From assembly GCF_000379905.1 (NCBI RefSeq), contig NZ_KB904057.1, forward strand, positions 1 to 64,000: DNA of 64,000 bases, read 5' to 3'. The DNA is from Rodentibacter pneumotropicus DSM 21403 (GTDB lineage Bacteria; Pseudomonadota; Gammaproteobacteria; Enterobacterales; Pasteurellaceae). How positions within the stretch are numbered: the stretch's first letter is position 1; every line of letters begins with the position of its first letter. The notes beneath the pieces are model-generated. The model was not told the DNA's origin and searched no databases. It was given only the letters and a program-made list of their open reading frames with translations. Of the stretch, positions 50,856-60,396 are shown piece by piece. Position numbers and translations under genes: made by a program.

Positions 50856-53126
50856 TTAGATTTTACATGCCCCGCCTGCGCAGCCATCATCAAGATCTTC
50901 TTGGGCATCTTCTGCGCCGTCACGGGTGTTTTGGTAGTAAAGGGTTTTTAAGCCGTATTTGTAAGCGGTTAATAAATCTTTTAATAACACTTTCATCGGC
51001 ACTTTACCGTCTTCAAAGCGTTTTGGATCGTAGTTCGTATTTGCGGAAATCGCTTGATCCACGAATTTTTGCATAATGCCGACTAAGTGTAGATAACCAT
51101 CATTGTTTGGAATATCCCAAAGTAATTCATATTGATCACTTAAGTTTTCGTAATCAGGTACCACTTGTTTTAAAATACCGTCTTTTGAGGCTTTCACACT
51201 CACATGACCACGAGGCGGTTCGATACCATTGGTGGCGTTAGAAATCTGTGATGAAGTTTCTGACGGCATTAATGCAGTGAGCGTGGAGTTACGCAAACCA
51301 AACTCTTGAATGTCTTTACGTAAACTTTCCCAATCGTAATGCAGGGGTTCTTGTGTGAGCGAATCCAAATCTTTTTTATAGGTATCAATTGGTAAAATAC
51401 CTTGTGAATAGGTGGTTTGATTGAAATATTCACATGCACCTTGTTCTTTGGCTAAATTCATTGAGGCTTTCAATAAGTAATATTGAATGGCTTCAAAAGT
51501 GCGGTGGGTTAAATCATTCGCACTACCATCAGAATAACGCACTCCATTTTTCGCCAAGTAATAAGCATAGTTAATCACGCCAATCCCTAAAGAACGACGG
51601 GCAAGGGAACTGCGTTTTGCCGCGGCAACAGGGTAGTCCTGATAGTCCAATAGGGCATCTAACGCACGAACGGCAAGATTTGCTAACTCTTCCAATTCAT
51701 CAAGATTTTCAATTTTGCCTAAGTTAAATGCAGAAAGGGTGCAAAGAGCAATCTCACCATTTTCATCATGAATATGGCTTAATGGTTTGGTTGGTAACGC
51801 AATTTCTAAGCATAAGTTAGATTGGCGTACCGGTGCCACTTGAGGATCAAACGGAGAGTGAGTATTACAGTGATCCACATTTTGAATATAGATACGACCG
51901 GTTGAAGCGCGTTCTTGCATTAATAGAGAGAAAATTTCCACCGCTTTGACTGTGCGTTTACGGATGTTTGGATCTTGCTCATATTTGACATAAAGCTCTT
52001 CAAATTTATCTTGATCGGCAAAAAAAGCTTCGTAAAGTCCCGGTACATCGGAAGGGCTGAACAAGGTAATATCACCGCCCTTAATTAAGCGTTGATACAT
52101 CAATTTATTTAATTGCACACCGTAGTCCATATGGCGAACACGGTTATCTTCCACACCACGGTTATTTTTTAACACGAGCAAGCTTTCGGCTTCTAAATGC
52201 CATAATGGGTAGTAAACCGTTGCCGCACCACCACGAACACCGCCTTGTGAACAAGATTTTACCGCTGTTTGGAAATATTTATAGAACGGAATACAACCGG
52301 TATGGAAGGCTTCACCACCACGGATTTCACTGCCTAAGGCTCGAATTGCGCCAGCGTTTACTCCAATTCCTGCACGTTGGGAAACATATTTCACAATGGC
52401 AGAGGCGGTAGCATTGATAGAATCCAAACTGTCGCCACATTCAATTAAAACACAAGAACTGAATTGGCGGGTTGGAGTACGCACGCCTGCCATAATTGGT
52501 GTTGGTAAAGAAATTTTGAAGGTGGAAGTGGCATCGTAAAAACGCTTGATATAGTCCAAGCGGGTTTCTTGCGGATATTTTGAGAATAAACTCGCTGCGA
52601 CCAATAAATAAAGGAATTGTGCGGATTCGTAAATTTCACCGGTTACACGGTTTTGCACTAAATATTTGCCTTCCAGTTGTTTTACGGCAGCATAAGAAAA
52701 GGTCATATCACGCCAGTGGTCGATAAAACCATCCATTTCATCCCATTCTTCGCGAGTGTAATCATCTAAAAGGGCATGATCATATTTCCCCATACGCACG
52801 AGTTTTTTGACGTGATCATATAAACGAGGTGGCTCGAAATGACCATAAGCCTTTTTGCGCAAATGGAAAATCGCCAAACGAGCAGCGAGGTATTGATAAT
52901 CAGGGGTATCTTTACTAATTAAATCTGCTGCGGCTTTGATAATGGTTTCGTGAATATCGGAAGTACGAATCCCTTCGTAAAACTGGATATGCGAACGCAA
53001 TTCTACTTGAGAGACAGAAACATTTTCTAATCCTTCTGCGGCCCAAGTAATGACACGGTGAATTTTATCAAGATTGATTTGTTCTTGCGTACCGTCACGC
53101 TTGGTAACTTTTAAACTTTTGTTCAT
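50856..53126 (-). CDS. nrdA: Class Ia ribonucleotide reductase, alpha subunit
   Basis: NrdA, 756 aa, the catalytic subunit. An ATP-cone allosteric domain opens the protein ([26 protein letters not shown]). The active-site cysteine triad is represented by [21 protein letters not shown] and the C-terminal redox pair CAGGACKI. Length is near E. coli NrdA (761 aa). The promoter region carries two NrdR boxes. As I remember it, in H. influenzae the next gene upstream is dolP; here a 2.5-kb segment lies between them. Confidence 0.97.
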
Positions 53127-53157
53127 GAATATACGAGCCTTTTTATATTATTTTAAA

Positions 53158-53173
53158 ACACAATATATAGTGT
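53158..53173 (-). promoter_or_regulatory. NrdR box 1
   Basis: ACACAATATATAGTGT, a near-palindromic match to the NrdR box, 32 bases before the nrdA start codon. NrdR represses nrd genes when dATP is high. Confidence 0.88.
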
Positions 53174-53188
53174 TTGTGAAACAACGAT

Positions 53189-53204
53189 ACACAAGATAGT
53201 GTGT
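53189..53204 (-). promoter_or_regulatory. NrdR box 2
   Basis: ACACAAGATAGTGTGT, 31 bp from box 1 (three helical turns), the standard tandem spacing for NrdR. It agrees with box 1 at 13 of 16 positions. Confidence 0.85.
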
Positions 53205-53607
53205 TTTTTTTGTCAGATCAAGTAATAAATTTTTTATCAAAATGATTGACAAAAAATTTATTATTAAAAAACAAATACTTTTCCGAGAATTGTAAATATG
53301 AGAATTTTTGCTTGAAAAAAACAAAAAAGTGCGGTCGAAAATCGGCTATTTTCCGTTATTCTGACTCGAAAAGGGGATGGTCTCATAATGGAAGGGAGAA
53401 TAATCTACATTTGTGCGCATAAGCATTTTTTTGTACGTGAAACTTGGTTTTCCCACGCTTGGTTATGGAATGGGGAACTTTTATGAACTGTATCGTATAA
53501 TTGTACAAGGATGGAATATTTATAAATCCTAATATCTAATATGTTGGAAAAGTGTTACTCTGTACAATTTCCAGGACTCTATAAATAAAAGATTAATAGG
53601 ATTTCTT
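53205..53607. other. Intergenic region between nrdA and the DUF262 gene
   Basis: About 400 AT-rich bases. It holds one arm of a split USS inverted repeat (53325-53341) preceded by an A-run. The part from 53342 to 53607 seems to belong to the inserted segment. A 32-codon ORF at 53388-53486 has no support. No promoter was fixed for the DUF262 gene; AGGATTTCTT before its ATG is the ribosome site. Confidence 0.5.
53325..53341 (+). repeat. Left arm of 17-bp USS inverted repeat flanking the DUF262 gene
   Basis: AAAAGTGCGGTCGAAAA. The exact inverted copy is at 55873-55889. On the minus strand this arm is followed by a T-run, as the 3' arm of an intrinsic terminator would be. Confidence 0.85.
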
Positions 53608-55728
53608 ATGAAAGCTAGTGAAGCAAATTTATTGAAATTTTTGAAAAAATCGCCGCAATTTATAATCCCTATCTATCAAAGAAATTATTCATGGACAGAG
53701 ACTCAGTGTCGTCAACTATGGGATGATATTTTACGTACAGGTTCGGATGAACAAACTAACGCCCATTTTATTGGTTCAATTGTATATATTGAACGTGCGC
53801 TTTCTACCGTAACAAGTCATGAATCTTTACTCGTTATCGATGGGCAACAGCGCTTGACTACTTGCACCTTGCTTATCGCCGCTTTGGCAGATTATTTGGA
53901 AGAGCAGCAAATCCCTGAATTGTTGGATACATTTTCTGCTAGAAAGTTGCGAAACTATTATTTGTTTAATCCTGAAGAACAAAACGACCGTCATTTCAAA
54001 TTGCTTTTGTCAGAAACGGACAAAGAAACATTATTAGCAGTATTAAAGCAAGAACCTCTACAAGAATCTGCAAGCATACGAGTTACAGAAAATTATGATT
54101 TGTTTAAAAAATTAATTTCGGATAATAGTGATAAATTGGATAAAATCTGCCAAGGCATAGATAAACTGATTATTGTAGACGTTGCATTGGAGCGAGATAA
54201 AGATAACCCACAGCTAATTTTTGAAAGTATGAATTCTACAGGGTTGGAACTCAGTCAGGCTGATCTTATTAGAAATTATATTTTAATGGGATTGAGTCCT
54301 GATCTACAAAATGAACTCTATCGTTCTTATTGGAGAAAAATTGAAAAATTGTTTGGACAAGAAGCATATAGTCAATATTTCGATGACTTTATGCGTCATT
54401 ACTTGACTGTAAAAACAGGTACAATTCCTAATATTCGTAAGGTTTACAATGAGTTTAAAAGCTTTTCCATAAGCTATTTCAAGGGCGATTCCAAAGGTTT
54501 GGTTGACGATATTTATAACTATGCTGGTTATTATTGTGCCTTTGCCTTGGACAAAGAAAGTGATCCTAATTTGAAACAGGCATTTTCTGATTTACGAGAA
54601 TTAAAAGTGGATGTTGCCTATCCTTTCCTATTGAGCACCTACCATGATTACAAACAAGGTCGCTTGAAAAATGGTGAAGTGCTGCAAGTTGTTCGCTTGA
54701 TAGAGAGCTATGTATTCCGCCGATCGATTTGTAATATTCCTACTAATTCACTTAACAAAACGTTCGCTTCGCTTGCTAAATCATTGAACAAAGAGTTTTA
54801 TTTAGAAAGTTTGCAAGCTCAATTCCTGCTTATGTCATCCTATCGTCGTTTTCCGAGAAATGGGGAGTTTTTACGCGAAATTCAAATTAGAGATGTATAT
54901 AATTTTGGACGGAGAAGCTACTTTTTGCGTAAATTAGAAAATTACGGTCGTAAAGAGACAGTCAATATCGGTGAATATTCCATTGAACATATTATGCCGC
55001 AGAACAAAAAACTCTCTATCGAATGGCAAGCGGAATTAGGAGAAAATTGGCAGAAAATACAAGACACTTATCTACACACATTAGGCAATTTGACCTTAAC
55101 TGGATATAACAGTGAATATAGTGACCATTCATTTACTTATAAACGGATTGAAATTTGTAATAAAGAAGGTGAAAAAATAGGATTAGCTTACAGCCCTTTA
55201 AGATTGAATAATGGTTTTAGTGAAATAGAAAAATGGAATGAAGAACAAATTAAAGGTCGAGCCGAAAAGTTAGCTGAAAAGGCAGTTTCTATTTGGGCAA
55301 TGCCGGACTTGGATAGTGAACAACTTGCCAAGTATGAAGAAGCAAAAAAATCTGAAAATTTGACTTACAGCATAAATAATTTCCCTAATCTGTTGAATAA
55401 TGAAGAATTAAATAATTTGTTTCAGAAATTACGAAGCAGCATACTGATGTTGGATTCTTGTGTCAGCGAAGAATATTTGAAACTCTATATAGCCTATAAA
55501 TTCGAAAATAATTTCGTAGATATTACCCCACAAGCGAAACAGTTGAAGCTTGTATTAAATATACGTTTTGCTGATATTCAAGATCCACGTGGATTGTGCC
55601 GAAATATTACCGATATAGGGAAATGGGGAAACGGAGATGTAGAAGTGAAGTTGAACAATATGGATGACTTACCTTATATAATGGGGTTGATACGTCAGGC
55701 ATTTGAGTATCAAATGGAAAAAGGTTAA
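53608..55728 (+). CDS. DUF262/DUF1524 protein, probable modification-dependent nuclease (GmrSD/BrxU/SspE-like)
   Basis: A 706-aa three-part protein. The N-terminal DUF262 domain (ParB-like nucleotide-binding/hydrolysing fold) shows IPIYQRNYSW (20-29) and the hallmark DGQQRLTT (78-85). DUF1524, an HNH-type nuclease, has EHIMPQ with His461 and LHTLGNLTLTGYN near 490-503. The C-terminal 90 residues (DSCVSEEYLKLYIAY to the end) look like a DUF5655 domain. Fused DUF262-DUF1524 proteins such as GmrSD, BrxU and SspE cut modified DNA and protect against phages. No methylase, dnd/ssp or BREX genes are beside it, so it acts alone or with a distant modification. No USS inside; it interrupts the dolP-nrdA neighbourhood. 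Confidence 0.87.
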   Translation: MKASEANLLKFLKKSPQFIIPIYQRNYSWTETQCRQLWDDILRTGSDEQTNAHFIGSIVYIERALSTVTSHESLLVIDGQQRLTTCTLLIAALADYLEEQQIPELLDTFSARKLRNYYLFNPEEQNDRHFKLLLSETDKETLLAVLKQEPLQESASIRVTENYDLFKKLISDNSDKLDKICQGIDKLIIVDVALERDKDNPQLIFESMNSTGLELSQADLIRNYILMGLSPDLQNELYRSYWRKIEKLFGQEAYSQYFDDFMRHYLTVKTGTIPNIRKVYNEFKSFSISYFKGDSKGLVDDIYNYAGYYCAFALDKESDPNLKQAFSDLRELKVDVAYPFLLSTYHDYKQGRLKNGEVLQVVRLIESYVFRRSICNIPTNSLNKTFASLAKSLNKEFYLESLQAQFLLMSSYRRFPRNGEFLREIQIRDVYNFGRRSYFLRKLENYGRKETVNIGEYSIEHIMPQNKKLSIEWQAELGENWQKIQDTYLHTLGNLTLTGYNSEYSDHSFTYKRIEICNKEGEKIGLAYSPLRLNNGFSEIEKWNEEQIKGRAEKLAEKAVSIWAMPDLDSEQLAKYEEAKKSENLTYSINNFPNLLNNEELNNLFQKLRSSILMLDSCVSEEYLKLYIAYKFENNFVDITPQAKQLKLVLNIRFADIQDPRGLCRNITDIGKWGNGDVEVKLNNMDDLPYIMGLIRQAFEYQMEKG

Positions 55729-55789
55729 ATTATTCAGTAGCAAGAGCAGAATAAGTGAATAATTTATCATTCATGCACACATCAATAAA

Positions 55790-55822
55790 AATCTCCATTA
55801 AGTGGTTAATTCAATGGAGATT
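55790..55822. other. Hairpin downstream of the DUF262 gene
   Basis: AATCTCCATT and AATGGAGATT are perfect 10-bp arms with a 13-base loop, about 60 bases after the stop. There is no T-run, so termination is uncertain; it may be the 3' hairpin of the inserted segment. Confidence 0.5.
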
Positions 55823-55872
55823 GTAGAATTTTCAAGCTGTTAGGTCTTTGTGTAATTACTATAACACTGTAT

Positions 55873-55889
55873 TTTTCGACCGCACTTTT
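55873..55889 (-). repeat. Right arm of 17-bp USS inverted repeat flanking the DUF262 gene
   Basis: TTTTCGACCGCACTTTT, exact inverted copy of 53325-53341, 29 bases after the dolP stop codon on the minus strand. It stands where a USS-pair terminator of dolP is expected. Confidence 0.85.
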
Positions 55890-55917
55890 ATAGAAAAAAT
55901 AATTTTTAGAGTGAAAA

Positions 55918-56499
55918 TTAATTCAAGTATTTGAATACTTTAACCACTTTTTGTACCCCACTAATTTTGCTGGCAATTTCAGCGGCGGCATCCGCTTGGG
56001 CTTGTGTCACATTACCTAATAGGAACACTTCGCCATTTTCAGTGATGACTTTCACATCTGTTGATTTCACCCGATCATCCACTAACATTTTGGATTTCAC
56101 TTGTGTGGTGATCCAACTATCTTTGCTGATTTGCCCGATAGTAATTTTAGGGTTCACGCGTAATTCATTATAGACATCGACTACACCATCCACGCCCTTT
56201 GCCAAGCCGGTCGCGGTTTCCTTGGTATTTTCACTTGGTACTTGACCGATTAGTAATACACGGGCGCTGTAAGATACGGCATTCACACGCGCTTCGGATT
56301 TAATTTGTTCGTCTTTATCTAAGGCATTTTCTACCTTAAATTCAAGAGTCTCATCATCGACTTGAGTACCCATTGTGCGTGGGTCCGTTGCAACTTTTGT
56401 TCCTGCTGCGGCTCCGCCAAGTACAGCGGCGACACAGCCTTGGAGCAGAATGGAAGCACTTAGAATAAATGCCAATTTTTTAACTGGGGTTAGTTTCAT
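55918..56499 (-). CDS. dolP: Division/outer-membrane stress-associated lipoprotein DolP
   Basis: DolP (YraP), 193 aa, an outer-membrane lipoprotein with two BON domains (about 47-115 and 125-193) that supports envelope integrity and BAM activity. Signal peptide with lipobox LLQGC (Cys about 22). ARVLLIGQVPS and GEVFLLGNVTQ are the BON glycine motifs. Last gene of lpoA-yraN-diaA-dolP, the order known from E. coli and H. influenzae. Confidence 0.94.
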   Translation of the reverse strand: MKLTPVKKLAFILSASILLQGCVAAVLGGAAAGTKVATDPRTMGTQVDDETLEFKVENALDKDEQIKSEARVNAVSYSARVLLIGQVPSENTKETATGLAKGVDGVVDVYNELRVNPKITIGQISKDSWITTQVKSKMLVDDRVKSTDVKVITENGEVFLLGNVTQAQADAAAEIASKISGVQKVVKVFKYLN

Positions 56500-56590
56500 T
56501 TCTCTCTCCTTTATTTAAATGAATCAATTAGTTAGTCAAATAAATAGTGAAATAGTTTAGATCTAAGATTCTAGGATAATGAACATTCTA

Positions 56591-57175
56591 TCAAACTCTT
56601 GGAAATAATGTGTGATCAATCAGTTCACAAACAGCATTAATTACAAATAAATGATTTTCCAAAATACGGCTTTCTTTGTTGGTAGGAATGGAAATTTCCA
56701 AATCTTGTGCTGCTAATAAGCCTTGAATGGCGTCATTATTTGAACCGGTTAAAGCAATCACGCTAATTTCTTTGCTTACTGCATTGGCAATGGTGTTGAG
56801 TACGGCTTTTTCCACACCAAGCGGAGCAAACGCAATAAGTAAATCTCCGGGTTTTGCTATTGCATTAAATTGATGTTGATAGAGATTTTCCGCTGAATGA
56901 TCAAAAACTAAGGAAGAACCGACCGCACTTTCTAGGCTGAGTAGTGCCGAAGGAAAGCTTGGGCGCTCAATATCATAGCGATTAAGCAGGTTAGAAACCA
57001 AAAATTGTGCATTGGCGTAAGAGCGTGCGATACCGCAAGCAATCACTTTATTGCCACCCAGTAAGCATTGAATTACCTTTTGGCTTGCATTGGCGATATT
57101 TTCCGTGAGCAAACTGGAGGCGGAAATTTGAATTTGGATGCTTTCGCTATAAATGTCTTTAACTTGTTGTAACAT
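56591..57175 (-). CDS. diaA: DnaA initiator-associating protein DiaA
   Basis: A 194-aa SIS-domain protein. DiaA tetramers bind DnaA and stimulate initiation at oriC. It is related to the sedoheptulose isomerase GmhA; the context between yraN and dolP favours DiaA. SIS features: KVIACGIARSYANAQFLVSNLLNR and LLIAFAPLGVEKAVL. GmhA remains an alternative on sequence alone. Confidence 0.88.
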   Translation of the reverse strand: MLQQVKDIYSESIQIQISASSLLTENIANASQKVIQCLLGGNKVIACGIARSYANAQFLVSNLLNRYDIERPSFPSALLSLESAVGSSLVFDHSAENLYQHQFNAIAKPGDLLIAFAPLGVEKAVLNTIANAVSKEISVIALTGSNNDAIQGLLAAQDLEISIPTNKESRILENHLFVINAVCELIDHTLFPRV

Positions 57176-60218: not shown

Positions 60219-60327
60219 CGGTATTATGTAATAGTTGCACAAAGCTGGTTTTTGTTGTGGAGACACACGGCGTGTGCCCTATATTTTGTTGAAATTTCTG
60301 TTTTTGTGCATTTGTTACATAATACCG
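60219..60327. mobile_element. MITE-like 109-bp element with imperfect terminal inverted repeats
   Basis: The ends CGGTATTATGTAA (60219-60231) and TTACATAATACCG (60315-60327) are perfect inverted repeats. After a 4x4 mismatch they continue as TGCACAAA/TTTGTGCA (60236-60243 and 60303-60310), so 21 of 25 end positions match. The middle has a small hairpin CACAC/GTGTG. No ORF and no T-run. It looks like a non-autonomous transposon relic or other repeat; no target duplication is clear (AAAACT occurs on both sides but not symmetrically). Confidence 0.55.
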
Positions 60328-60396
60328 AAAACTCGCTGTTTTTTGACCGCACTTTTAGATAAATTTTATAGACATCGTCTATTTACGGAGAAGAAT

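Follow-up and report, generated by a model that had tools for sequence, protein, structure and literature searches.

The intergenic region between dolP and nrdA of Rodentibacter pneumotropicus DSM 21403 lies within the first 64,000 nucleotides of contig NZ_KB904057.1 (assembly GCF_000379905.1); this whole stretch is called the window below. In this region a gene for a GmrSD-type nuclease stands between the two arms of a terminator hairpin built from a pair of uptake signal sequences (USS). As argued here from sequence comparison, on which the whole analysis rests, the hairpin was very probably split when a cargo unit of an IS1595-type transposon (IS, insertion sequence) inserted into it, the unit being non-autonomous for lack of a transposase. 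The features of the locus are collected in Table 1.

A preliminary description of the window had reported a perfect 17-bp inverted repeat around the gene, a T-run after the second arm and no other USS in between, and all three observations hold. The sequence AAAAGTGCGGTCGAAAA is found exactly at the two arms and nowhere else in the window (0 such pairs expected, 100 shuffles), T-rich DNA comes after the second arm when the minus strand is read, and none of the 55 AAGTGCGGT cores of the window falls between the arms, where 2,531 bp take the place of the loop. Since the same 17-mer occurs 8 times in the 2.26-Mb genome, the arm match alone is suggestive and is not proof.

The gene had been described as encoding DUF262 and DUF1524, and both domains are indeed present in its product, as GmrSD_N (DUF262, E 1.6e-36) and GmrSD_C (DUF1524, E 5.3e-22), with DUF5655 at the C-terminus. 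The best PADLOC matches are Orf5 and HEC-06; NCBIfam assigned the protein to no family, and an Rfam scan of 52500-57000 gave no match. In a family sample of 140 Pasteurellaceae genomes (43 genera, one genome per species), homologues of the nuclease occur in 12 genomes, the window genome counted, and in none of the other 14 Rodentibacter genomes.

Table 1. Features of the split dolP terminator and of the DNA between its arms (window coordinates; TIR, terminal inverted repeat; MFE, minimum free energy)
Feature	Position	Strand	Remarks
USS arm on the nrdA side, distal stem of the dolP terminator	53325..53341	+	T-rich run on minus strand; also in the R. mrazii empty site
Putative target-site duplication copy, TATTTTC	53347..53353	.	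One T shorter than its partner; boundary from end scoring
Putative degenerate TIR, nrdA side, CGTTATTCTGACTCGAAAAG	53354..53373	+	Best TIR score nearby, low in absolute terms; inference
Cargo gene, 706-aa GmrSD-type nuclease (DUF262 + DUF1524 + DUF5655)	53608..55728	+	
Subterminal end of an IS1595-type transposon	55784..55861	-	85% identity over 78 bp to the element end of genome G118, E 2.7e-18
Hairpin and T-run inside the element end, likely replacement dolP terminator	55790..55822	-	MFE -12.8 kcal/mol, z -3.1
TIR, dolP side, inward CAGTGTTATAGTAATTACACAAAG	55846..55869	-	
Putative target-site duplication copy, TATTTTTC	55870..55877	.	1 bp off the USS core; boundary from end scoring
USS arm on the dolP side, proximal stem of the dolP terminator	55873..55889	-	

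Empty and occupied sites in related genomes

The decisive check that the split hairpin is real comes from R. mrazii, the sampled species closest to the window genome by dolP (98%), which carries the empty site. Its dolP-nrdA gap of 276 bp contains AAAAGTGCGGTCGAAAA, an 8-nt loop and TTTTCGACCGCACTTTT, followed by T-rich DNA, and the DNA flanking the insert in the window is 94-95% identical to it over 191 and 248 bp. The R. mrazii hairpin has an MFE of -24.5 kcal/mol (z -7.3). The site is occupied in 3 of the 15 Rodentibacter genomes (the window genome, G117 and R. rarus G123) and empty in the other 12. In the alignment of empty sites that the preliminary description had recommended, the hairpin is kept in all 12, with both exact USS cores in 9 and an altered core in 3 (G119, G128, G129).

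The two other filled sites carry different inserts in the same loop, as had been anticipated. The gap is 459 bp long in G117 and 274 bp in the related G119; the longer one contains a miniature inverted-repeat transposable element (MITE) of ~172 bp, recognized by its TIRs. In R. rarus (L048 5879-7269), 186 bp separate the two cores, where ~20 is usual. The 8 kb examined downstream contain no nrdA; a metX-like gene, named by eye, is found instead, and perhaps the dolP terminator of this species marks a rearrangement breakpoint. The empty sites and these other inserts together support the proposal that foreign DNA entered the loop of a USS terminator.

dolP is present in all 140 genomes; outside Rodentibacter its loci were examined within 1.5 or 8 kb. 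Paired exact cores are found beside nrdA in 9 of the 11 genomes of group g22 and in 3 of 3 of group g19. The gap of G079 (g22, L022) has no USS cores; a hairpin, CTGCCCCCAAAA...TTTTGGGGGCAG, stands in place of the USS hairpin and looks like a remnant of another mobile element. In G080, in G131 and in the distant genera that were fetched, nrdA does not adjoin dolP. One further locus, L059 (CABDVE010000001.1), is titled Pseudomonas stutzeri NCTC11607; it is Rodentibacter-like (dolP 80%) and probably mislabelled.

The ends of the insert

Towards dolP the insert ends like an IS1595-type element (Table 1). Ends matching its last 144 bp occur in 19 of the 140 genomes, the window genome counted. In nine loci that were read, at least eight such ends show, by eye, a TIR and then a hairpin with a T-run; the hairpins of G118 and G022, when folded, gave z of -6.1 and -5.8. 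An accessory open reading frame (ORF) of ~170 aa lies next to the end in 7 of the 9 loci, and a partial transposase was recognized by eye in L247 and L251. The arms of the dolP terminator are now 2.5 kb apart; since the element end brings a hairpin and T-run of its own, termination of dolP has probably been kept through this predicted structure. The nrdA-side junction has no significant fold in the window (z 0.17).

The boundaries were placed by scoring a TIR profile over 22 nearby positions on the nrdA side and 20 on the dolP side. The best start on the nrdA side is 53354 (top 0.2% of the window), and 55869 is a good start on the dolP side (top 0.5%), 55860 scoring slightly higher. The duplication, which had first been read as GAAAAATA/GGAAAATA (minus strand), thereby became TATTTTTC/TATTTTC. 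With ends at 53354 and 55869, the insert lies 18 and 9 bp from the respective USS cores, and this spacing fits the register of the element family described below.

Several observations weigh against this interpretation. The TIR scores are poor in absolute terms, 0.8 bits at 53354 and -2.0 bits at 55869 where a perfect TIR gives 20.6, and a TIR profile hidden Markov model that scores 4.5 bits on the dolP side (not significant) finds no match beside nrdA. One of the two flanking repeats has a T fewer than the other. The 266 bp on the nrdA side have no IS-end relatives, the sole match elsewhere being 29 bp in one genome. No transposase ORF or remnant of one was detected in the insert (best tblastn E 0.021), which can thus be at most a non-autonomous derivative. 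The nuclease was also considered as a regular cargo of the IS1595-type family, an idea that gained no support: 12 of its 13 homologue loci were examined (L071 was left out; flanks up to 1.5 kb), and all 12 are without an IS end, with one TIR-like end at L062. On balance, the split terminator of the window looks like a worn copy of an IS1595-type element.

Pasteurellaceae are naturally competent, and the nuclease gene might instead have reached the loop by natural transformation, with illegitimate or homology-assisted recombination at the arms or nearby and no transposition at all. The USS arms, intact on both sides, and the lack of a clear IS end beside nrdA would agree with such a route. We nevertheless hold it to be unlikely: towards dolP the insert has a 78-bp IS end, its boundaries show flanking repeats and TIR-like starts, and its 9/18 register is of the kind seen in transposons with exact 8-bp duplications.

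A family of IS1595-type elements

The TIR (up to 3 mismatches) is found in 93 of the 140 genomes and in 33 of the 43 genera; a reversed-pattern control gave 0. Of the 15 Rodentibacter genomes, 12 encode IS1595 transposases (PF12762), 11 of them above the family cut-off; the window genome has 4 copies. PF12762 and PF12760 were both present on all five full-length transposases, from three elements, that were scanned singly. By our own count, ACCGCACTT stands just outside the TIR-like end in 13 of 17 transposase loci.

Twenty complete elements were picked by paired TIRs alone from 14 genomes of 8 genera outside Rodentibacter. They measure 3.3-13.5 kb, and 14 of the 20 have an exact 8-bp duplication. 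Their common layout comprises a TIR, a small ORF, a coiled-coil-like ORF, a transposase of ~344 aa, a divergent helix-turn-helix (HTH) ORF, the cargo, a second transposase of ~357-379 aa, often a further small ORF, and the other TIR; the labels 'coiled-coil-like' and 'HTH' were given by eye, save for one HTH that was scanned. Several complete elements lack parts of this layout. Three of 3.3 kb (L321, L322, L324) have no IS1595 transposase ORF, yet they possess TIRs, an exact duplication and USS arms, and are by analogy a precedent for the cassette of the window.

Restriction-related cargo is carried by 14 of the 20 (L314-L320, L323, L325-L327, L330-L332), each with one or more ORFs that match a family of methylases, specificity subunits, restriction enzymes or RnlA. 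Examples are Eco57I-like, AlwI and NgoFVII enzymes, methylase and specificity pairs, a type III helicase or methylase, RloB with AAA_21, and an RnlA-like protein. When 44 ORFs, including two transposases, were scanned together, N6_Mtase was matched by 10, Eco57I by 7, Methylase_S by 5, HSDR_N_2 by 4 and DNA_methylase by 3. Other cargo includes MbnB/TglH/ChrH-like, DoxX and DUF2063 proteins (L321) and oxidoreductase-type genes (L333); a 1076-aa ORF of L328 matched no family. For L322 one cargo ORF was scanned, L324 was judged by matching ORF starts, and the cargo of L329 was scanned in part. In four Rodentibacter elements the cargo comprises systems of type I, IIG-like and type III kinds together with an AAA ATPase.

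The window genome has an IS1595 composite element of its own, of 9.86 kb, in a USS hairpin (L188 1670-11526, G000:C17). It is flanked by the exact duplication GAAAATGT and carries a methylase, a specificity subunit and a 37-kD nucleoid-associated protein. The DNA of its first transposase gene is 94.0, 92.9 and 91.5% identical to that of G022, G041 and G008, as compared with 60-67% protein identity for dolP between the window genome and the same three. This disparity makes transfer of the elements between genera likely, and we infer natural transformation as its possible vehicle. The elements of G008 sit at the other of the two USS dialects considered below.

The family also has MITEs. One with the same TIRs (2 and 4 mismatches) lies in the window itself at 60219-60327, between AAAACTGC-like and AAAACTCG repeats, with a single USS downstream at 60346. 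Several MITEs of G117 contain a palindrome like GGTGCGTTACGGCTTCGCCTAACGCACC. A 1.28-kb element of G117 (178421-179708; L112 18421-19708) was considered as the autonomous partner of the MITEs and rejected; its transposase, judged by eye from a motif, is presumably IS110-like, and the IS1595 transposases took its place. This element seems to be nested in a MITE of the IS1595-type family, between outward-facing USS.

Association with uptake signals

In 1.2 Mb of G117, a converging USS core lies within 45 bp of 50 of the 118 TIR ends, as compared with 1.5% of random positions. By the same measure, 85 of 180 Rodentibacter ends have such a core against 10 of 1260 control windows, and 42 of 78 ends from other genera against 4 of 546; for all ends together the figures are 127 of 258 and 0.8%. 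The control windows lie 300-650 bp farther out from the element ends. Loci were fetched by TIR, transposase, dolP or nuclease, or as tiles, the dolP loci adjoining the hairpin under study; a USS-containing pattern served to fetch L001 and L002 only, and these two are not the sole source of any end.

MITEs lie between both arms of a USS pair in 12 of 39 cases and have at least one arm in 26 of 39; an intergenic null gives 0.45% and 7.5%, respectively. Of the complete elements, 13 of 20 stand between paired USS, 7 at exact cores of one dialect and 6, by eye, at another, which we take to be the Haemophilus and Actinobacillus types. In L315-L317, CAAGCGGT is found on both sides. It thus appears, as far as sequences can tell, that elements and MITEs target the uptake signal itself, in both dialects. 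Against this must be set the 131 of 258 ends without a converging USS within 45 bp, the 6 of 20 complete elements with neither arm and L330 with a single one, and three of the six Actinobacillus-type pairs (L314, L318, L333), in which one core is exact and one has a mismatch.

The spacing was examined in a set of 264 unique ends with 132 converging cores within 62 bp. Of these cores, 37 lie exactly 9 bp from the element edge, 58 lie at 18-20 bp and 14 at 27-28 bp (109 of the 132, with 23 elsewhere). In hairpins whose inner span is ~20 bp, the 9 peak is mirrored at 18-20, which accounts for some of the latter peak. Among the 64 TIR pairs whose duplication copies differ at no more than one position, 20 have both arms, 23 one arm and 21 none; among the two-arm pairs, 11 of 20 combine 9 bp on one side with 17-20 on the other. 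The register is kept by strict single-arm elements, 11 of 12 of which lie at 9, 17-19 or 28 bp. Outward-facing USS peak sharply as well, 16 cores among the 264 ends finishing exactly 20 bp from the element edge, which indicates that insertion upstream of USS likewise occurs at a constant distance.

Terminator hairpins in general were considered as the target and rejected: of the MITEs without USS, 0 of 13, a small number, lie in stems of at least 8, as compared with a background of 6.5%. As the register is found at single USS, and hairpins are not preferred when USS are missing, the USS core rather than the hairpin appears to set the insertion position. Hairpins would be struck because two USS are held there, and single USS are struck too.

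Empty sites of other elements were sought for 39 MITEs of G117 (1.2 Mb) and 14 of G119 (400 kb). A comparable place was found for 14, and 7 of these are clean empty sites. Three of the 7 are USS pairs with the insertion point inside, with altered cores at 56912 and 263717 of G117 and exact cores at 158557 of G119; of the remaining four, two closely adjoin an intact USS pair, one adjoins a single USS and one has no such neighbour.

Could the elements insert at random in A/T-rich intergenic DNA, the copies near terminators surviving as little harmful, so that the link with USS reflects selection only? The duplications are A/T-rich, 38 of the 39 MITEs lie at intergenic edges, and the related ISApl4 has A/T-rich 8-bp repeats mostly in non-coding DNA (PMC12561309, available in part). 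We regard this as very improbable, since sites with both arms are ~68-fold and those with any arm ~9-fold above the intergenic null, distances from the core are quantised even at single USS, and hairpins without USS are not favoured. As for the arms being unrelated USS that face each other by chance across an ordinary gene, an idea that the eight genomic copies of the 17-mer might encourage, it is refuted by the hairpin at 12 empty sites and the same two arms in R. mrazii, and retains practically no probability.

Proposed mechanism and significance

According to the model that we propose, DNA would be cut with an 8-bp stagger at roughly one or two helical turns from the GCGGT of a USS, the position being dictated either by a transposase complex (both IS1595 transposases with small accessory proteins) or by a USS-bound host protein. 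At an inverted USS pair, a cut at this fixed distance would put the element in the loop and so leave it with two flanking uptake signals. The hairpin and T-run of the element end would then replace the lost dolP terminator. In natural transformation the cargo (mostly restriction-modification genes, in the window a GmrSD-type nuclease) would be taken up preferentially, and recombination in the flanks would bring it into recipients. Which protein would read the USS, and the aid that flanking USS would lend to uptake, are conjectures from sequences; the spacing could in principle be imposed by a host protein rather than by the transposase.

We lean, with some reserve, towards the broader view that USS are the docking site of Pasteurellaceae-wide transposons, whose integration a transposase, an accessory protein or a host USS-binding protein would fix one or two helical turns from the GCGGT common to both dialects, and that these transposons spread restriction systems via transformation. 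Elements landing at USS would therefore gain uptake signals and ride natural transformation. The preliminary description had suggested that cassettes enter USS terminators by a general route and then spread by transformation. The route does look general, though it resembles USS-aimed transposition of the IS1595 type and not passive entry; spread by transformation is still conjectural.

Where bacteria take up their own DNA in preference, it is an open question by what means foreign cargo devoid of uptake signals can come to be transformed. A transposon landing at a fixed distance from USS would solve it in one step, coupling transposition with transformation. It would also help to explain the spread of restriction systems across Pasteurellaceae, and would present a defined in vitro problem of target selection.

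Relation to known systems

The nuclease resembles type IV restriction enzymes of the GmrSD (DUF262-DUF1524) kind in having both domains in one protein, and differs from them by its extra C-terminal DUF5655. Mobile insertion cassettes and MITEs have IS ends and duplications and lack a transposase of their own; the elements described here differ by their fixed distance from uptake signals.

The nearest relatives belong to the IS1595 family (ISXO2-like, with IS1016/ISApl4 and Tn7560). ISApl4 is an element of the IS1016 subfamily with A/T-rich 8-bp repeats, and Tn7560, a pseudo-compound transposon of ISApl4, was moved by natural transformation (PMC12561309; this and the other sources cited here were available in part). 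The present elements share with them a DDE transposase domain with a zinc ribbon, A/T-rich 8-bp duplications and a capacity for cargo. They differ in having two different transposases flanking the cargo, together with accessory ORFs, and in their TIR, which is distinct from the ISApl4 inverted repeat GGGGCTGTACTAGA. The available part of PMC12561309 does not mention USS targeting for ISApl4 or Tn7560, and IS1595-type elements of Pasteurellaceae genomes are mentioned, again without USS targeting in the parts available, in PMC4943601 and PMC3339403. No report of a link between IS1595 elements and USS was found in the openly licensed literature, where most matches were judged by their listing.

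USS are found in up to 22% of the terminators of some Pasteurellaceae (PMC13020248, in part), and are considered to have arisen by substitution, not insertion (PMC1626085, in part). Terminators made of inverted pairs of USS, or of DNA uptake sequences (DUS), are the same hairpins as those treated here (PMC13020248, PMC2397512, both in part); the one in the window is disrupted and was apparently an insertion target. Neisseria elements flanked by uptake sequences are also mentioned in the available text of PMC2397512. The minimal mobile elements of Neisseria offer a further parallel, in that different cassettes occupy the place between two conserved genes across strains; they are defined as being incorporated solely via homologous recombination (PMC3898611, in part). 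The insert of the window differs from them by its IS end and flanking repeats, which point to transposition, and recombination may have contributed to its later spread.

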